The notes below the pieces were generated by a model that saw only the letters and a program-made list of their open reading frames with translations, was not told where the DNA came from and ran no database searches. Of a stretch of 51,913 bases of DNA, positions 3,030 to 11,155 are shown piece by piece. Source of the DNA: Gemmatimonas sp. GTDB taxonomy: Bacteria; Gemmatimonadota; Gemmatimonadetes; Longimicrobiales; Longimicrobiaceae. The first letter of the stretch is position 1; each line of letters starts with the position of its first letter. The stretch lies in the NCBI GenBank assembly GCA_009380025.1, contig WHSP01000016.1:1-51913 (forward strand). The letters run 5' to 3'. Both the position numbers and the translations under genes were made by a program.

Positions 3030-3701
3030 ATGCTGAACCTGCTGAGAAAGTTTCTGCGCCCGACGCTGCGAGAGCAGCTGGAGGATGGCGTGCGCGAGGC
3101 GCTGCGCCGCTATGTCGAGCGCCAGAGCACCCCGAACCTGCGAGTCTACGTCTCGACGGATCTGGTTCCCGAGGGTGTGGAGGACGCCATGTGGGCGCAC
3201 GACGAGTCCGAGCACCTGCGACGCTTCGCGCTCCAGTGGGCGGAGGACAACGGCGTGCCGCGAGTCGGGATGCGCGCCGAGGTGATCCTGCTGGATACCA
3301 AGAAGGAGTTTGCGTTCGTGAAGCCGGTAGGGGCCGAGCCGGTGGAGGCTCGCTCGGGTGCGCCGTCCGCGCGGGAAGAGCGACCGAGTGCGGGCGGTCA
3401 GGCCGTCCTGGAGGTCGTCTCGTCCCCGAGCCTGACCGCACCGTTGCGAATCGCAGGTGAGTTGACAGTGGGTCGGAAGGTTAATGGGGACGTGTTCGGC
3501 GCGGGAGACCGCTACATGTCGGGCAGGCACGCGAGGTTCCACATTGCGGGGAGCACGCTCTTCGTGACGGACCTGGATTCGAAGAATCGGACGTTCCTGA
3601 ACGAGCGACCTCTTCCCCCGCACGAGCAGGTACCGGCGGCCGTCGGAGACGAGATCCGGATGGGCGCGACGACCTTTCGGGTCGCCGAGATCGGGGAGTA
3701 G
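3030..3701 (+). CDS. FHA-domain protein with DUF3662-like N-terminus (FhaA-like)
   Basis: A 223-residue cytoplasmic protein. Residues 1-100 resemble the DUF3662/FhaA N-terminal domain. A low-complexity linker (about 100-135) leads to a C-terminal FHA domain (about 141-220). The FHA core residues are present: G148-R149, S164 with R166-H167, and N186. These bind phosphothreonine peptides. The usual S-K-N-G-T-F loop reads S-K-N-R-T-F here. It is the first gene of a cluster with PBP, SEDS, PP2C, FHA and kinase genes, and only 3 bp separate it from the next. It probably reads out phosphorylation by the cluster's kinase, as FhaA does in actinobacteria (inference from domain and context). Confidence 0.88.
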   Translation: MLNLLRKFLRPTLREQLEDGVREALRRYVERQSTPNLRVYVSTDLVPEGVEDAMWAHDESEHLRRFALQWAEDNGVPRVGMRAEVILLDTKKEFAFVKPVGAEPVEARSGAPSAREERPSAGGQAVLEVVSSPSLTAPLRIAGELTVGRKVNGDVFGAGDRYMSGRHARFHIAGSTLFVTDLDSKNRTFLNERPLPPHEQVPAAVGDEIRMGATTFRVAEIGE

Positions 3702-3704
3702 GCT

Positions 3705-5249
3705 GTGGACGTGCTGCTGAACTGGGCATTGCGGGGCGCGTACATCACTATCGGTGCGGGCGCTGGGTTGTGGATCTTGCGGTGGTTGCAGGTGAACTGG
3801 CGGAGCTCATCGGAGCGGTGGACGGTCCGGATCGCTGCCGTGACCCTGCTGCTCGCAGGCGTGTACACGATCGCCCATGTTCGGTTGCTCGTGCAGCGAT
3901 CGGCGATCGAGGAAGGGCGGGAGATCTACGCAGTATTCGGGGATCCGCGGCGAACGGAGATGCGGCGCGCAGAGGTCCGCGGATGGATGTTGGACTGCAC
4001 AGCCAGGGAAGACGGCGCGCTGGCCTACTACCGGGAGCGCGACGGGGTGGTGGAGCGGACGTACCCGCTCGGTGAGGCCGGCGCGAACCTGATCGGCGGG
4101 GGCGAAGGACCGGAAACCCGCGACTACACGATCGAGATCCTCTTTGCGGACGAGCTGCGGCGGCCGGGAACGTTCATGGAGCTCGGCGCGCTGCATCCGG
4201 CCGGCGAGGATCTCGCCGTGACGCTGTGCCGGAACGTCACGGCAGAGGCGTACGAGCAGCTTGCCCGGGTAGGCCGGCCAGGGGCCGTCGTGGTGCAGGA
4301 CGCGAGCAATGGCGCCGTGCTCGCCTATGCCGCGACCGGTGGGCCTGAAGAGCCGCCCCTGGGCATCAAGCGGTATTCCCCGCCGGGCTCGGTCTTCAAG
4401 TTGGCACTGAGCGCCCTGTGGTGGGAGAGCGGGATGCCGGACGACATATCGATCCCCTGCCCGGCCGAGATCGAGGTGACGTCTCGGGCGACGATCTCGA
4501 ACTTCGGCAACATCGGTCGCGGGATGGTGGAGGGGCCGGCGGGGATGCTGATCCCCTCGTGCAACACTGCCGCCGTATGGATGGCGCAACGCCTTCGCGA
4601 GGAGGTCGGGAGCGAAGCGTTCGTCGAGGCGTACCGACGCTGGGGCTTCGAACCGTACGAGGAAATTCCGCCCCGCGATTCGATCGGCGACTTCTGGCGA
4701 ACGCGTTCGGATGCGTGGACACGGCGTATGACACCCGCCCCGTCCAGGCTCCGCATTTCGGGGCGCACCGGCGATGCCGAATGGGCCCAGCTCTCCATCG
4801 GGCAAGGGCCACTGGATGTCACGGTCGTCGGAGTTTCCCGTTTCGTCCAATCGATCGCGAACGACGGCGTGATGCTGCCCCCGACGATTGAGCTCGATCT
4901 CGCTCTCGACTCGCCCCGCGGCCAGCGTGTCATGCGCGCGAGCACCGCCGAGAAGCTCCAGGAAGCAATGCTCCAGGTGGTGGAGCGAGGGACCGGGCGT
5001 GGGGCGGGTGCGATCATGCAGGGTACCGGTTGGCAGATCGGGGGGAAAACCGGCACCGCGCAGCTCGCTGGCCGTGCCGACAACGGCTGGTTCGCGAGCA
5101 TCGTGTTCGACCCTGAAGGCGAACCACGCTACACCGTGGTCACGCTCGTCGTCGGGGGCGGCGGAGGAAGCGGTGCAGCGGCCACGATCGCCGGCCGGGT
5201 CGCCCGCGAGCTAGTCCGAGAGCCTCCCGTACTCGGGGGGGCGGAATGA
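3705..5249 (+). CDS. Penicillin-binding transpeptidase (PbpA-like)
   Basis: A 514-residue peptidoglycan transpeptidase starting at GTG, 3 bp after the FHA gene. Two membrane segments (about 10-28 and 42-62) precede a periplasmic region. The transpeptidase domain holds all three catalytic motifs: S229-x-x-K232 (S-V-F-K), S285-C-N287 and K448-T-G450. The region before it (about 70-190) is short compared with classical class B PBPs. Overall it resembles actinobacterial PbpA. The stop overlaps the start of the SEDS gene (ATGA), matching the known pairing of class B PBPs with SEDS glycosyltransferases for cell-wall elongation or division. pbpA would be the natural symbol if homology is confirmed. 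Confidence 0.9.
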   Translation: MDVLLNWALRGAYITIGAGAGLWILRWLQVNWRSSSERWTVRIAAVTLLLAGVYTIAHVRLLVQRSAIEEGREIYAVFGDPRRTEMRRAEVRGWMLDCTAREDGALAYYRERDGVVERTYPLGEAGANLIGGGEGPETRDYTIEILFADELRRPGTFMELGALHPAGEDLAVTLCRNVTAEAYEQLARVGRPGAVVVQDASNGAVLAYAATGGPEEPPLGIKRYSPPGSVFKLALSALWWESGMPDDISIPCPAEIEVTSRATISNFGNIGRGMVEGPAGMLIPSCNTAAVWMAQRLREEVGSEAFVEAYRRWGFEPYEEIPPRDSIGDFWRTRSDAWTRRMTPAPSRLRISGRTGDAEWAQLSIGQGPLDVTVVGVSRFVQSIANDGVMLPPTIELDLALDSPRGQRVMRASTAEKLQEAMLQVVERGTGRGAGAIMQGTGWQIGGKTGTAQLAGRADNGWFASIVFDPEGEPRYTVVTLVVGGGGGSGAAATIAGRVARELVREPPVLGGAE

Positions 5250-6889
5250 GTCTCCGTGACCGGTTCCGCCGCGAGCGGGACCGCGAAGGACCGCAGGGCA
5301 TCGCGGTCTCCCTCCGCTCACACAACCGACCGGGGACGCCCCGTGCGGCCCGACGCCGGGGTATCTCTCCGCTGCTGCTGCTGGCCATCGCCCTCTCGGC
5401 GATCTTCTATCTGCTCGCGCACTACTCGATCATCGAGGGCGTTTGGCCCGTTCACGGGATCGCTCCCGGCGCGGGTTCCGTGCTGTTTCGCGATGCGGTC
5501 GCGTGGATCGGTTGGCTCCTCCTCCTCCCGGCCCTCCGCCTGCTCGGGTATCGCGGGAACTGGGCGGTCGTGGTCATCCCTATCGTCATCTTCTTCCTCG
5601 CCCGGCCCGCACTCTTCCAGCTCTTCAGCGATCCCGTCTATCAGGCGCGCGGTGAGGCCCGTTTCGAGGCGAACGCTCTCAAAGCGGAACGGTCGCAGCT
5701 CACGACGATCCTGCGGACCTATGACGATGAGCGTCTGTCGTCCGTTTTCGAGGACGAAGTCCCAGTCCTGCCTGAGCCGATCGAGGCGGTCCGGGAGGCG
5801 ACGGGCAGCGATGGCCGACCCGGGAGCCGGTTGAGCTCCGCGCTCTCCGTGATGCTGGCTCCGCTCGCCGTCCTGCTCGGTTTCGTCCTCGCGACACGGC
5901 GCGGTGCTCTGCGCTGGTTCCGCGATCATCGTGAGATTCCGTTCGCCGCCGCGCTCGGCATCTTCTTTGTGCTCACGACCTTCTTCGTCGAGCTGGGCCG
6001 CGTCCGGGGCACGACCCCGTGGGAGCTCTTCCTCCCTATCTTCATCGGCGCGTGGGCTGCGTTGCTGGCCGATGATGCGTATAATCTCGCCCGGCCCGGT
6101 GCCATGCTCGCCCCCCGGCGAATCCTGGTGCTACTTCTCTATGGGGCAATTCCAATCGTCCCCTTCCTGATCATTCGGGAGCTGGGTCTGTCGGTCGTGC
6201 TTGCGGGGAGTCTCGCGACGATGCTCCTGGTTGGGACGCGACGCGAGTGGTGGGCGGGGTTGATGCTCGGCGTCTGGGTCGTCCTGGTGGTGGCGGCGTT
6301 CAACCTGGATACCCGTTCCCAGACCCGCCTCCAGCTCGCGATCGATCCGTACCGTGACCTGAGCACGATGACCGTGCCGGAGGCCGAGTCCTGGGCAGCC
6401 GCCATGCACCAGTTCAAGCTCTTCGACGCCAACATTCTGGCGGGCGGGATCTTCGGGGAAGGACCGGGCCGCGGCCACGCCGAGACCGCGCCGAACGCTG
6501 CCGACGATGGATACATCACGACGATCGCCGCCCAGTGGGGCCTGTTGGGCACCCTTTCCCTCGTTCTCCTCTACAGCGCCTTGATCGTCGAGCTTCTGAG
6601 CGTAGCCGTACGAGAGCGTAGCGCCTTCGAGCGGTCCCTGGTAACCGGCCTCGCGATGCTGCTGGCGATTCCGTTCTGGATGTCCGCCCTCGGCGGCGTT
6701 CGCGCGGTGCCGCTGACCGGAGTCGCCACGGCGTTCGCCGCGAGTGGCGGCGCGAAGTTGCTCGCATCCTCGTTCGCGATCGGCATCGTCGCCGCCATCA
6801 GCCACCGTCGAGTGGAGGCCGATCGGCTCGAGGCTGCCGGCGAATCGATGCACGCCCGGCCAGAGGAGCAGGGGGTACAGATCCGATGA
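5246..6889 (+). CDS. SEDS-family (RodA/FtsW-like) membrane protein
   Basis: A 547-residue membrane protein with roughly ten hydrophobic segments and a basic N-terminal tail of about 40 residues. A soluble loop (about 130-190) lies between the second and third membrane groups. The diagnostic region is near residues 395-440: a G-x-G-P-G-R-G-H stretch, then D-D-G-Y-I-T-T-I-A-A-Q-W-G. This aligns with the conserved extracytoplasmic loop of RodA/FtsW, including the essential Asp. SEDS proteins polymerise lipid II into glycan strands with a partner class B PBP, which is the gene just upstream (4-nt overlap). The 3' end overlaps the phosphatase gene in the same way. It is more divergent than typical RodA, so elongation versus division cannot be decided. 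Confidence 0.85.
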   Translation: MSLRDRFRRERDREGPQGIAVSLRSHNRPGTPRAARRRGISPLLLLAIALSAIFYLLAHYSIIEGVWPVHGIAPGAGSVLFRDAVAWIGWLLLLPALRLLGYRGNWAVVVIPIVIFFLARPALFQLFSDPVYQARGEARFEANALKAERSQLTTILRTYDDERLSSVFEDEVPVLPEPIEAVREATGSDGRPGSRLSSALSVMLAPLAVLLGFVLATRRGALRWFRDHREIPFAAALGIFFVLTTFFVELGRVRGTTPWELFLPIFIGAWAALLADDAYNLARPGAMLAPRRILVLLLYGAIPIVPFLIIRELGLSVVLAGSLATMLLVGTRREWWAGLMLGVWVVLVVAAFNLDTRSQTRLQLAIDPYRDLSTMTVPEAESWAAAMHQFKLFDANILAGGIFGEGPGRGHAETAPNAADDGYITTIAAQWGLLGTLSLVLLYSALIVELLSVAVRERSAFERSLVTGLAMLLAIPFWMSALGGVRAVPLTGVATAFAASGGAKLLASSFAIGIVAAISHRRVEADRLEAAGESMHARPEEQGVQIR

Positions 6890-7941
6890 GCCGCGCAAAC
6901 CTCCGCGGGATCCGGCTCGAGGTGTCTGGTTTCTCGGAGCAGGGGCCCCGGGCCGAGAACCAGGACGCCTATACCGTTTCTGGCTTCGAGGACGTGGGGC
7001 TGCTTGCCGTGGCGGATGGGATGGGTGGGGAGAAGAGCGGCCGGGTGGCCGCCGACGCTGCCCTGCACGTTTTGCTCGATGCCTCTCCTCTGCGCAGCGT
7101 CGACGACGCACGCCGTGCGATCCGGGAGGCCAATCGGGCTATCGCGGCCCTTTCCGACGCGGATCCGGACGCCCACGGGGGGATGGGATGCGCCCTGGGT
7201 GTGCTCGGCCTCACCGACGGGGGAGACGGACCGGGATGGATCGCCGCGCACGTCGGGGACGTCCGCATCCTCTCCCGTTCGCCCGATGGGCTCTTGAGGC
7301 TGGAAACCAGGGATCACACACCTGCGTTCGCGCGTTGGGAGGCGGGCGAGATCTCCCTCGACGAGATCCCGGATAGCGCGGGCGCGAACCGGCTCCGGCG
7401 TGCCGTCGGTCGTGGCGGTGAAGCCGACGTAACCTGGCTCCCGGCTGCACCGGGGTGGTCCTGGCTGATCATCTCCGACGGCATCTACAAAGCGATGCGC
7501 TTCGACGAGCTGGCTGCGGCGATGGACCTTCCGACCACCACTGAAACTTGCGAGGCCATCCGGCTGAAGGTCCAGGAGCGAGGTTCCGACGACAACTATA
7601 CCGCCGTGTACGTCCGGGCCATCGGTGGTCCGGCCGCCGCCTTCGACCACTCGAACGACACCGATCCGATGGCGCCGACTCCCGCGACCCCGCACGGTCC
7701 CCGCTCGGGACGTGGTGGGCTCGCTCTCGCGCTGGGCATCCTGGCGCTGCTGCTCGCCGGTCTCGCCCTCTGGACCGCATACAGCGGCGTTCTTGGCGCC
7801 TCCCAACAGGTCGAGATCGAATCCCTGCGCAGCGAGGTCGATTCTTTGCGGATCATTGTCGATGAGCTGCGCGACCCCTTCGGACCGGCCGCGCCGACCG
7901 ACACATCGGGCCTCTCGACACAGCCTCCTCCAGCGCGATGA
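6886..7941 (+). CDS. PP2C-type serine/threonine phosphatase (PstP-like)
   Basis: A 351-residue protein. Residues about 1-245 form a PP2C catalytic domain with the expected metal-binding Asp motifs: E-N-Q-D-A-Y, V-A-D-G-M-G-G, G-D-V-R-I, I-I-S-D-G-I-Y and S-D-D-N-Y-T-A-V. A single membrane segment (about 268-290) is followed by a short, coiled, proline-containing extracytoplasmic tail. This is the architecture of actinobacterial PstP, which dephosphorylates PknA/PknB and their targets. Start and stop both overlap neighbouring genes by four bases (ATGA), so it is co-translated with the SEDS and second FHA proteins. The expected role is to reverse phosphorylation by the kinase two genes downstream. 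Confidence 0.92.
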   Translation: MSRANLRGIRLEVSGFSEQGPRAENQDAYTVSGFEDVGLLAVADGMGGEKSGRVAADAALHVLLDASPLRSVDDARRAIREANRAIAALSDADPDAHGGMGCALGVLGLTDGGDGPGWIAAHVGDVRILSRSPDGLLRLETRDHTPAFARWEAGEISLDEIPDSAGANRLRRAVGRGGEADVTWLPAAPGWSWLIISDGIYKAMRFDELAAAMDLPTTTETCEAIRLKVQERGSDDNYTAVYVRAIGGPAAAFDHSNDTDPMAPTPATPHGPRSGRGGLALALGILALLLAGLALWTAYSGVLGASQQVEIESLRSEVDSLRIIVDELRDPFGPAAPTDTSGLSTQPPPAR

Positions 7942-8843
7942 GCGACGAAGAACGCGTTCCCGGATCCCGCGATCCGCAGAGCCTGATGGACGAGCTGCTC
8001 CGCGCGGGCGTCCCCGAGATCAAACTCGCCCTCGGCGAGGTGATCGACCGCGAGAATGCCCGACCACTTCCGGCCCGATACGCGCGCCTGCTTCCCGAGA
8101 CCGTGCTCCTCGTCACCCTTCGGCCAGACGCCGCCGCCGCCCTCACTCCCATCGCGCCCGATGTCGAGCGCGAGCTGACGGATTCGTGCAACCGCCACGG
8201 GTCGCTGTACGACCGCGCTTACCGTGTACGGCTCGAGCGCTCGGAGGATCCCGACGTTCCATTCTACGTCGTCTCGTCCCACTCCGGCCGGGACGTCGGG
8301 AGCTTGGCGGAGACGGCAAAGGCGAACGGCACCGGCGCCGTCGCGCCGGACCTACCGGTGGCCAACCCCGACGCGACCCGGGTCCCTACCGAGGTGACGC
8401 CGGGTTGGGAGCCCGGTCGGTGGCTTCTCGTCGTGGAGGACCTGGCGGGTGAGGAGCGCGAGGCGTTTCGCATCGGTGAGCCGACCTTCACGGTTGGGCG
8501 TGGAACCGACGATCCGCAACTCCGTGCGACGATCGCGATCAGCGATGCGCCGCATGTGAGCCGCCGACAACTGGCTCTCGCCTGGGAGGAGCGGGATGGG
8601 GCCCCCGGCTTCCGGGTCTACAACCTGGGGTTGAACGAGGTCCGTTTGCCCGGGATCGCACTCCCCGGCGCCCACGCGAAGAACGGCACAGCCCTCGAAT
8701 CGATCGACCCGAAGCACGTCGGCTGGTTACCGCCGGGCGTTCCTCTACACATCGGCGAGAAAGGGCCCGTCTTGCGGATCGACGAGGTCCCTGCGGACCT
8801 GGACGACGTGAGGATCGATCCCGATGCAACGGTGTTCGAGTGA
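7938..8843 (+). CDS. FHA-domain protein, second copy
   Basis: A 301-residue protein whose start overlaps the phosphatase stop. The N-terminal 120 residues resemble the DUF3662-like domain of the first FHA protein in the cluster. After a linker, an FHA domain occupies about 160-290, with V-G-R-G near 180 and H-V-S-R-R-Q-L as the phosphothreonine-binding loop. The sandwich is longer than usual, with an acidic insertion. It probably recruits kinase substrates or regulators in the cytoplasm. A pair of FHA proteins flanking the PBP/SEDS/PP2C genes parallels fhaA/fhaB of actinobacteria. No membrane segment or signal peptide is seen. Confidence 0.82.
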   Translation: MSDEERVPGSRDPQSLMDELLRAGVPEIKLALGEVIDRENARPLPARYARLLPETVLLVTLRPDAAAALTPIAPDVERELTDSCNRHGSLYDRAYRVRLERSEDPDVPFYVVSSHSGRDVGSLAETAKANGTGAVAPDLPVANPDATRVPTEVTPGWEPGRWLLVVEDLAGEEREAFRIGEPTFTVGRGTDDPQLRATIAISDAPHVSRRQLALAWEERDGAPGFRVYNLGLNEVRLPGIALPGAHAKNGTALESIDPKHVGWLPPGVPLHIGEKGPVLRIDEVPADLDDVRIDPDATVFE

Positions 8844-8891
8844 TGACGAGGCATTCGCGTCGGATTGAGAACGGGAGGGCTGACCGCCACG

Positions 8892-10826
8892 ATGTCCGGA
8901 ATTGAAGGACTACTGATTGGTCGGGAGCTCGGCGGCCGCTACCGCATCGAGGAGTTGATCGGGCGGGGCGGGATGGGCGCGGTGTATCGGGCAGTCGATG
9001 AGCGGCTGGGACGGCAGGTCGCACTCAAGGTGATCACCGTTGCGGGCACTGGCGACGAATCCCGAGAGCGGCTTCGCGCCCGGTTCTTCCGGGAAGCACG
9101 CTCGGCCGCTGCGTTGCCGCACCATCCCAACGTCGTACCCGTCTACGACTACGGAAGCGACGAGGACCTCGGCCTGGATTACCTCGTGATGGAGCTTCTC
9201 CACGGCTCCGACCTCGCCACCCGCCTCAGCAGCTCAGGCGCGCCGCCCCTCGCGGCCTCCTTGAAGATCCTCGTCGAGGCCGCCCGCGGCCTGGCCGTCG
9301 GTCACCGGAAGGGGCTGATCCACCGCGATGTGAAGCCGGGCAACATCTTCCTCGCCGAGACGCATGCCAACGAGGTCCAGGTCCGTGTCGTTGACTTCGG
9401 AATCGCCAAGCTCGCCGACGAGGAGGATACCCTCGCGCAGCTTACGCAGGACGGTCGCGTTCCGCATTCGCCCGCTTACGCCTCCCCCGAGCAGCTTCGC
9501 GGCCTGACAAACCTGACGCCCGCCTCGGACGTCTTCAGCCTCGGAGCCGTCGGCTATGAGCTGCTCACTCGAGAACGGCCCTTCACCGAGAGCGATCGCA
9601 ACCGGATGTCGCTCGGGATGCCCGTCGCGGCGCCTTCGGTCCGGTCGACGAACCCCGCCGTCCCGGCGACGGCCGAGGAGGTGATCGGCAAAGCGCTCTC
9701 GTACGACTCGGAGCAGCGCTTCGCAGACGCTGGCGAGATGGGCAGCGCGCTCGAGCAGGCGATCCGCTCGATCGCCGACACCACGGTCGACCCCTATCTG
9801 GCCGGAGCGCCGATTGTCACCGCCGCGGGGATCGGCGACGCCACTCCCATCGCACCCGGGGACGACCGGACTCGGATCGCGGCGGCTGTCGAGGAGGACC
9901 TCACCCTCCTCGCCCCTACCGGTATCGAGCCGCCAATGGGGAGAGGCGGCGCTTCCCCACCCCCGCCCAGACCCATTGCTACGACCCGCCGGCACGACCG
10001 CGGCAGCCGCAAGAGCATTGGCGGCGTCATCGTGTGGGGGCTGGTCATCGGCGTGTTGCTTGCCGCCGTGCTATGGGGGCTGGTGTCGAGGAACGGCGGG
10101 GAAGTCGCCGTGGATGAGTTCCCGCCGCCCGATTCGGTCCCCCTCATCGTCCCGCAGGAGCAGCTGGATGCGCCGCCCGACGCACCCGGGCCGCTCGACG
10201 CCTACATCAACGATCAGGAGGGGCGCCGCTACTACCGTGCTGGAGCCTACGATTCGGCCTGGGTCCAGTTCAACCGTGCGGTCCAGCTCGAGCCGGACAA
10301 CCCCGACTACCGGCGAAATTATGCGCTGGCGCTGCTCGCGGTTGGTCGGCCGCTCGATGCCGATCGAGAAGTGCGACGGGCTATTCAGATCGCCCCGAAT
10401 CGTGCCCCGCCCTATCAAACACTCGCCCAGATTCGGCTCGCTCTCGGCGATACCGCCAGCGCGATCGCCGCGTTTGAGGACTACCTCGACCGAGAGACCC
10501 GGCCCCGGGAGGCCGGGATCGCGGACCGGAACCTCCGCGGTCTACGCGCGGCGTATCGGGTTGGCCGGTTCCCCCCCCTTCTGGGCGATACCGTGAGCCA
10601 GGAGCAGCCGGAAACCCCCGAGCCTTCGCCGGAGCCTGAGCCTGGGCCGACCCCTGAGGACACCACCTCGCCACCCGACACCGCGGCTCTGGAGGAACCC
10701 TCGCCTCCAATTGTCCCGGCGCCCGGCGACTCCATCGCTGACCCCGATACCACGGTGCCTCCGCCAGACGGCTCCCCTGCCGGCTCCATCGTCCCGGCGA
10801 CCCCGCTCGGCACGCCGCGCCTCTGA
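8892..10826 (+). CDS. PknB-type serine/threonine protein kinase with TPR and proline-rich tail
   Basis: A 644-residue membrane kinase. I chose the ATG with GGGAGG 12-13 bases upstream over a TTG nine codons earlier. The kinase domain (about 17-290) has the glycine loop G24-R-G-G, catalytic lysine K46, the H144-R-D146 loop with N151, and D168-F-G. The activation segment reads R-V-P-H-S-P-A-Y-A-S-P-E-Q, lacking the usual G-T before the Y-x-x-P-E. A membrane segment lies at about 376-398. Outside the membrane are TPR-like helices (about 430-530) and a Pro/Glu-rich tail, rather than the PASTA domains of actinobacterial PknB. The sensor therefore probably responds to something other than muropeptides. 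It ends the phospho-signalling/cell-wall cluster. Confidence 0.92.
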   Translation: MSGIEGLLIGRELGGRYRIEELIGRGGMGAVYRAVDERLGRQVALKVITVAGTGDESRERLRARFFREARSAAALPHHPNVVPVYDYGSDEDLGLDYLVMELLHGSDLATRLSSSGAPPLAASLKILVEAARGLAVGHRKGLIHRDVKPGNIFLAETHANEVQVRVVDFGIAKLADEEDTLAQLTQDGRVPHSPAYASPEQLRGLTNLTPASDVFSLGAVGYELLTRERPFTESDRNRMSLGMPVAAPSVRSTNPAVPATAEEVIGKALSYDSEQRFADAGEMGSALEQAIRSIADTTVDPYLAGAPIVTAAGIGDATPIAPGDDRTRIAAAVEEDLTLLAPTGIEPPMGRGGASPPPPRPIATTRRHDRGSRKSIGGVIVWGLVIGVLLAAVLWGLVSRNGGEVAVDEFPPPDSVPLIVPQEQLDAPPDAPGPLDAYINDQEGRRYYRAGAYDSAWVQFNRAVQLEPDNPDYRRNYALALLAVGRPLDADREVRRAIQIAPNRAPPYQTLAQIRLALGDTASAIAAFEDYLDRETRPREAGIADRNLRGLRAAYRVGRFPPLLGDTVSQEQPETPEPSPEPEPGPTPEDTTSPPDTAALEEPSPPIVPAPGDSIADPDTTVPPPDGSPAGSIVPATPLGTPRL

Positions 10827-11155
10827 GCGCGCGCTTCCGCGCCCGACTCTCCGGCTCGGGCACTGTCCACCTCCCGGCTTACGGACCCGCCGACGCCGAA
10901 GCGCGCCTCGAGAAGGAGCTCGCGGCCGCCCTGCCCGAAGCGACCATTCGAGTCCGCGGTATCCGCCGCACCGACCCGACCCCTCGGATCGTCGAGGAGT
11001 TCGCGATCGACTACACGCTGAGCGCACACACTGAGGTCGAGGCCGATTCCGAAGCGGACGCGAGACGTGCAGCGTTCGCGACGGTGCGCCAGGCACTCGC
11101 GACGACGCGGTTCGAGCGGGTGGCTTGGGAGAAGGCCGAGATCACACGGTCGTGA
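10823..11155 (+). CDS. Small conserved-looking protein coupled to the kinase, probable CTG start
   Basis: There is an open frame of 110 codons directly after the kinase, in the -1 frame relative to it. It opens after an in-frame TGA at 10739-10741 and contains no ATG, GTG or TTG early enough to serve as a start. The CTG overlaps the kinase stop as CTGA, the same coupling geometry as ATGA. Codon third positions are strongly G/C, as in the neighbours. The product alternates Ala/Glu/Arg-rich helices and short strands, for example around A-D-A-E-A-R-L-E-K-E-L and I-V-E-E-F-A-I-D-Y. It looks like a compact alpha/beta domain; no family recognised. Alternatives are a -1 frameshifted C-terminal extension of the kinase, or a sequencing error. 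Confidence 0.55.
   Translation: MSARFRARLSGSGTVHLPAYGPADAEARLEKELAAALPEATIRVRGIRRTDPTPRIVEEFAIDYTLSAHTEVEADSEADARRAAFATVRQALATTRFERVAWEKAEITRS

Follow-up and report, generated by a model that had tools for sequence, protein, structure and literature searches.

What a set of kinase, phosphatase, forkhead-associated (FHA), penicillin-binding protein (PBP) and SEDS genes does in a Gram-negative bacterium, and whether it came there from Actinobacteria, is the question raised by positions 3030-11155 of contig WHSP01000016.1, which was analyzed over a stretch of 51,913 nucleotides (the window). The source genome (5.0 Mb in 478 contigs, 97% complete) belongs to the family Longimicrobiaceae of the Gemmatimonadota. 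The list of open reading frames (ORFs), together with Pfam and NCBIfam scans, revealed seven genes (A to G), all on the plus strand and in one co-directional run, in the order FHA1-PBP-SEDS-PP2C-FHA2-STPK-gene G, where STPK denotes a Ser/Thr protein kinase. This operon is real, coherent and family-wide, and is a differently built version of the known kinase/FHA-linked SEDS-PBP locus. It probably provides the Longimicrobiaceae with a third dedicated SEDS-PBP pair under a phospho-control circuit of its own, working in the steps proposed below. The pair itself is encoded by genes B and C:

3705..5249, plus strand: gene B, a class B PBP of 514 amino acids with a hydrophobic N-terminal region (PF00905, 120.9 bits)
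4389..4400, plus strand: active-site SxxK of the PBP (S229 to K232), invariant in 19 orthologues
5246..6889, plus strand: gene C, a divergent SEDS glycosyltransferase of 547 amino acids, overlapping gene B by 4 bases (PF01098, 83 bits)
5618..5839, plus strand: conserved loop of approximately 74 residues in the SEDS protein, placed by hydropathy between the predicted transmembrane helices TM3 and TM4
6506..6508, plus strand: putative catalytic Asp of the SEDS protein (D421), invariant and aligned to the Asp of HTDFVF in Thermus thermophilus RodA (6BAR)

The product of gene B has a transpeptidase domain with SxxK, SxN (S285-x-N287) and KTG (K448-T-G) motifs, all invariant in 19/19 orthologues, and has no glycosyltransferase domain, which identifies it as a class B PBP; Pfam recognized no dimerization domain in it (PBP_dimer_2, PF21922, was undetected). 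Gene C aligns to the RodA and FtsW structures. The Asp of HTDFVF is the established catalytic residue of RodA, and the PF01098 fold, with the putative catalytic Asp in a loop predicted to be extracytoplasmic, identifies the product of gene C as a SEDS protein. The genome contains five transpeptidase genes, whose types were judged from their sequences: FtsI, PBP2 with a pedestal, the operon PBP and two of class A. The SEDS genes present are FtsW (in a mur cluster), RodA (after mreBCD) and the operon SEDS. Since the canonical FtsW/FtsI and MreBCD-RodA/PBP2 systems are also encoded, the operon pair is a third one, beyond the elongasome and the divisome. A search of plasmid records with the SEDS query gave no match.

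The initial annotation had left open whether related genomes share the gene order. Comparison of 19 Longimicrobiaceae loci by tblastn revealed the same order and orientation at every locus with enough contig, in about ten genera, with −1 or −4 base junctions common and whole-protein identities to the window of about 39-71%. In one genome (G007), FHA1 and the PBP gene end one contig (PBP at 8118-9608 of 9658), while FHA2 and the kinase gene begin another, the pattern expected from a contig break within the operon. None of the flanking genes tested by tblastn (encoding two membrane proteins, an APH-family protein and a hydrolase) was found at the relatives' loci. Because all relatives with sufficient contig share this order, the operon is more than a product of chance; a chance adjacency of unrelated genes, which could be argued only from the general commonness of each gene family, is refuted by an order that stays constant over about ten genera while the tested flanking genes differ, and we give it practically no credence.

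The SEDS profile (E<=1e-30) matched 20 of the 394 genomes of the class, all of them Longimicrobiaceae, and a PBP search (E<=1e-25) in 40 relatives from the order gave no match outside this family. Among 395 genomes of the phylum, the N-terminal domains of FHA1 and FHA2 were matched strongly only in Longimicrobiaceae, other matches being marginal (E>0.003). Within the sampled phylum the operon proteins are thus confined to the Longimicrobiaceae, where every genome checked has the operon, even those of only 2.8-2.9 Mb.

Five relatives also encode a membrane peptidase of the BlaR1 type (M56) whose C-terminal transpeptidase domain is a paralogue of the operon PBP (41-44% identical; L075:7550-10180, L076:7375-9846, L077:8175-10652, L078:7973-10468 and L079:7149-9218). 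The M56 and transpeptidase domains were recognized by Pfam in two of these proteins, and HExxH and KTGT motifs are present in all five. They are possibly wall-antibiotic sensors derived by copying the operon PBP. Such sensors, and the fact that the operon pair is extra to the canonical pairs, would fit a synthase reserved for special conditions (wall stress, antibiotic response or development), with the kinase as a damage sensor. However, presence in every family genome checked, small ones included, looks more like a core function, and we regard this explanation as quite unlikely.

The components from which a control circuit could be built are encoded by genes A, D, E and F:

3030..3701, plus strand: gene A, FHA1 (223 amino acids), with an N-terminal domain of approximately 100 residues and a C-terminal FHA domain
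6886..7941, plus strand: gene D, a PP2C phosphatase of 351 amino acids, with one C-terminal transmembrane helix and a short tail, overlapping gene C by 4 bases
7938..8843, plus strand: gene E, FHA2 (301 amino acids), with an N-terminal alpha-beta-alpha-beta-beta domain and a divergent FHA domain, overlapping gene D by 4 bases
8376..8378, plus strand: Thr147 of FHA2, a candidate phosphosite in the motif PDATR immediately preceding the FHA domain, present in 14/15 orthologues within a poorly conserved linker
8829..8831, plus strand: Thr298 of FHA2, a candidate phosphosite in the C-terminal motif DPDAT, invariant in 15 orthologues
8892..10826, plus strand: gene F, a membrane Ser/Thr kinase of 644 amino acids counted from ATG 8892 (PF00069, 134 bits)
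9858..9911, plus strand: juxtamembrane acidic Thr motifs of the kinase, DDRT327RI and EDLT338LL, candidate sites of autophosphorylation and FHA docking
10221..10520, plus strand: tetratricopeptide repeat (TPR) region of the kinase, predicted to be extracytoplasmic (TPR_14 31.9, TPR_19 30.9 and TPR_17 30.0 bits, all above cut-off)

The kinase consists of a Hanks-type kinase domain, an acidic Thr-containing linker, a single transmembrane helix (376-394, by hydropathy) and TPRs that, in the probable orientation, lie outside the cytoplasm. Its HRD and DFG motifs, as expected of a Hanks-type kinase, and the activation-loop T185 are invariant, and translation probably starts at ATG 8892, TTG 8865 being the first possible start. 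The TPRs had been annotated as replacing PASTA domains, and this holds: the Pfam scan gave no PASTA match. Thr327 and Thr338, which have acidic neighbours, are invariant across 13 aligned orthologues, in a linker otherwise weakly conserved (mean top-residue frequency 0.52). Each kinase orthologue has one to three DDRTxL-like motifs, the second copy in the window being EDLTLL, and neither DDRT/EERT-type nor DPxxT motifs were present in five further kinases encoded by the genome. Three relatives encode another, distinct Ser/Thr kinase beside the operon kinase (L045:4471-6288, L043 from 6036 and G019:C40:772-2367), downstream of FHA2 wherever this part of the contig is available; these tandem kinases recall pknA-pknB by position only.

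The phosphatase was recognized by PF13672 (33.7 bits) and NF033484 (88 bits). Among its orthologues the acidic residues D27, D44 and D198 are invariant and D236 nearly so, and hydropathy places the single transmembrane helix at 277-295.

FHA1 matched the FHA family of Pfam (PF00498, 46.6 bits), and its AlphaFold model (pLDDT 85.8) resembled the FHA domains of OdhI/GarA (Foldseek E about 1e-8), the N-terminal domain being predicted as alpha-beta-alpha-beta-beta with a basic first helix. The window copy of FHA2 had no Pfam match; an FHA domain was matched in 4/15 orthologues, and the AlphaFold model of FHA2 resembles FHA structures (Foldseek E 2.8e-7). With the FHA fold backed in this way, both proteins are putative phosphothreonine readers. 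Neither N-terminal domain was matched by Foldseek among the 50 matches listed, and hhalign detected no homology between the two, though both models are alpha-beta-alpha-beta-beta. The part list of the initial annotation, FHA(DUF3662)-PBP-SEDS-PP2C-FHA-STPK, was supported by Pfam and by AlphaFold/Foldseek, except that the label DUF3662 (PF12401, FhaA_N) had to be dropped: it matched neither FHA protein of the window, nor the N-terminal domains of 17 FHA1 orthologues, nor 15 FHA2 orthologues, while genuine actinobacterial FhaA proteins, used as a positive control, score 87 and 130 bits.

Several precedents suggest how these parts may act together. In Mycobacterium tuberculosis the juxtamembrane region of PknB, once phosphorylated, binds FhaA, and in Streptococcus pneumoniae phosphorylation of the juxtamembrane domain of StkP affects and steers divisome assembly (PMC12077195); FhaA, which is encoded in a conserved operon, has a role in polar elongation (PMC11898655). 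Like StkP, PrkC and PknB, the operon kinase is of Hanks type, crosses the membrane once and has a long juxtamembrane linker containing Thr residues, but its ectodomain is made of TPRs whereas theirs is made of PASTA domains. The FHA switches GarA and OdhI share with FHA2 a conserved Thr motif before the FHA domain; unlike FHA2, which has an additional N-terminal domain and a C-terminal motif, they regulate 2-oxoglutarate dehydrogenase. By analogy with the PknB-FhaA interaction, the recurrent, conserved Thr motifs DDRTxL (kinase linker) and DPDATR (FHA2) suggest FHA docking.

In the circuit that we propose, (i) the single-pass kinase would sense the state of the envelope via its TPRs and autophosphorylate, (ii) it would phosphorylate the acidic Thr motifs of its own linker and of FHA2, where Thr147 and Thr298 are the predicted sites, (iii) FHA1 and FHA2 would read these phosphothreonines and position the SEDS-PBP pair at the membrane or switch it there, with FHA2 possibly also switched by binding its own phospho-motif in the manner of GarA/OdhI, and (iv) the membrane PP2C would reset the circuit. 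Phosphorylation, FHA docking, TPR sensing, membrane orientation and the SEDS-PBP pair as the target are predicted from sequence features, and a role of the FHA proteins in linking the state of the kinase to this pair is proposed from the actinobacterial precedent.

Several points weigh against this proposal. The SEDS proteins sit on a very long branch (2.4 changes per site in an 18-row tree), so the operon SEDS could be a specialized or altered enzyme, and its cytosolic tails showed no outstanding conserved Thr, judged by orthologue conservation, that could be a direct target. The comparison of the Thr motifs with other kinases spans only five of them, and TPRs also occur in functionally unrelated kinases.

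The origin of the operon was approached through four actinobacterial loci taken from plasmid-filed records, those of Actinomyces oris (L087) and Tsukamurella (L098) identified by annotation, and those of Nocardia (L085) and Arthrobacter (L106) by tblastn; the Arthrobacter rodA consists of two ORFs and was excluded from the trees. These loci confirmed that the annotated match in content to fhaA-fhaB-pstP-rodA-pbpA-pknA-pknB is real: the actinobacterial locus, like the operon, combines two FHA proteins, a PP2C, a SEDS protein, a short class B PBP and a membrane Ser/Thr kinase in tightly packed genes. The gene order differs, as had also been noted (compared with L087 and L098). Moreover, the operon has no detectable FhaA_N (PF12401), PASTA or PBP_dimer_2 (PF21922) domain, all of which Pfam detected in the actinobacterial reference proteins serving as positive controls, and has TPRs in the kinase instead. 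PBP_dimer_2 was found in the PBPs of A. oris, Tsukamurella and the clostridium Monoglobus, and not in that of the window. In addition, its kinase lies outside the PknA/PknB clade, its PP2C is not specifically grouped with PstP, its SEDS protein is divergent and it has an extra, seventh gene.

In the kinase tree, the operon kinase clustered with L109, a native kinase, and its placement in one clade with PknA/PknB was rejected (approximately unbiased (AU) test, p=1.6e-6). Kinases related to it are numerous in the Longimicrobiaceae, so a local source is plausible. The operon PP2C grouped with a native PP2C (L121; support 95/94) in a tree with long branches, whose PstP side includes another native PP2C.

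Two SEDS trees, both unrooted, were built from 18 and 28 rows. The Longimicrobiaceae proteins clustered in a single clade with a very long stem, a third deep lineage that did not fall within actinobacterial RodA, with canonical FtsW/RodA on one side (support 96/96 with 18 rows and 97/92 with 28). Actinobacterial RodA and the Monoglobus SEDS were grouped with 28 rows (91/78) and unresolved with 18. Since the trees are unrooted, they place the operon SEDS outside canonical FtsW/RodA without proving sisterhood to the FHA-linked SEDS proteins. A sister relationship to the RodA of the same genome was rejected with 18 rows (p=0.031) and gave p=0.071 with 28, that to its FtsW gave p=0.064 (18 rows), and a clade with actinobacterial RodA alone was not rejected (p=0.325 with 18 rows, 0.226 with 28). 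In the PBP tree the backbone was unresolved; sisterhood to the PBP2 of the same genome was rejected (p=0.016) and a clade with PbpA was not (p=0.088). A separate observation concerns a Rhodococcus pseudokoreensis plasmid (L097:3746-6586), where an 'FtsW/RodA/SpoVE' protein of 946 residues is encoded; at roughly double the length of ordinary SEDS proteins, it is possibly a fusion.

These results bear directly on the idea that an ancestor of the Longimicrobiaceae received the whole actinobacterial locus in one block. The same kinds of parts are present, and neither a clade of the operon SEDS with actinobacterial RodA nor one of the PBP with PbpA was rejected; nevertheless, the rejection of a clade of the kinase with PknA/PknB largely refutes it, the PP2C shows no specific grouping with PstP, and the missing domains and different gene order point the same way. 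We consider a block transfer very improbable, and the old transfer offered by the initial annotation is disfavoured by the kinase and PP2C trees and by the separate deep SEDS lineage. Of the trees against actinobacterial homologues that it had called for, those of the kinase and the PP2C turned out negative, while a clade of the SEDS with actinobacterial RodA alone was not rejected (p=0.23). Its second suggestion, a wider phospho-control of wall synthesis, appears to fit better than old transfer.

In Monoglobus pectinilyticus (Clostridia; L089:6014-8999), FHA, SEDS and short PBP genes adjoin as in the operon, so Actinobacteria are not alone in having FHA-linked SEDS-PBP pairs; the clostridial order is FHA-SEDS-PBP, PBP_dimer_2 is detected, and the genes annotated in the retrieved stretch include no kinase or phosphatase. 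This triplet is the starting point for another explanation, in which the operon goes back to an ancient FHA-SEDS-PBP(-kinase-phosphatase) locus, common to this lineage, Actinobacteria and Clostridia, that was kept or acquired early, and the kinase and phosphatase were later replaced locally. The position of the SEDS outside canonical FtsW/RodA and the rejected sisterhoods to the native RodA (in one data set) and PBP2 agree with it, as do profile comparisons evaluated with column shuffles, a lenient null: the N-terminal domain of FHA2 has a weak likeness to actinobacterial FhaA_N that none of 150 shuffles equalled, and the N-terminal region of the PBP a weak likeness to that of PbpA (1/100 shuffles equally good). 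However, the N-terminal domain of FHA1 was no closer to FhaA_N than shuffles were (12/150 equally good), sisterhood of the SEDS lineages depends on the root, the rejection of the native RodA weakens with more rows, PF12401 and PF21922 are undetected and the gene order is different. We therefore treat this ancient shared locus as a serious but rather unlikely alternative.

The placements of the kinase, phosphatase and SEDS, together with the absence of FhaA_N and of the PbpA dimerization domain, make a transfer en bloc unlikely and favour separate assembly of the operon, which on balance we accept. The locus resembles its actinobacterial counterpart in parts list and probably in logic, but separate assembly is its most probable history, at any rate for the kinase and the phosphatase.

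The repeated 4-base overlaps attributed to the operon are present at three junctions (PBP/SEDS, SEDS/PP2C and PP2C/FHA2), and at a fourth, kinase/gene G, only if CTG 10823 is taken as the start of gene G; FHA1 and PBP are separated by a 3-base gap, and FHA2 and the kinase by a 48-base gap. The seventh gene lies within the annotated range and had been left unlisted:

10823..11155, plus strand: gene G, a small conserved protein of about 110 amino acids, probably starting at a CTG within a 4-base overlap with the end of the kinase gene

Its orthologues, which start with ATG, GTG or TTG, lie downstream of the kinase gene in 11/19 family loci; it was undetected in L041 despite a sufficient stretch, and the ORF call in L038 is unreliable. 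Gene G belongs to no known family and has no Pfam match. A scan for promoters and terminators gave nothing exceeding chance. Upstream of the operon, positions 65-2763 of the window encode a multi-transmembrane protein and a membrane protein without a Pfam family, neither of which was found at relatives' loci. Anti-phage defence was considered and rejected, the PADLOC matches being generic kinase-domain ones and one weak PP2C match.

Operon-linked control of wall synthesis by kinase, phosphatase and FHA proteins has been studied chiefly in Actinobacteria and Firmicutes, and in the open full-text literature searched we found no paper combining a Longimicrobium-type name with 'FHA domain'. It is conceivable, though we hold this only tentatively, that a diderm family independently evolved, within one operon, a kinase-gated third SEDS-PBP machine distinct from elongasome and divisome, in which the kinase senses through TPRs and FHA proteins act as relays, convergent with the mycobacterial growth-control locus. 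A Gram-negative counterpart, built differently and present family-wide, provides a second case in nature for testing which parts such a circuit needs (FHA docking on the kinase linker, a membrane phosphatase and a dedicated SEDS-PBP pair), and the Longimicrobiaceae operon likewise tests which parts can be replaced, among them the PASTA ectodomain, FhaA_N and the gene order.

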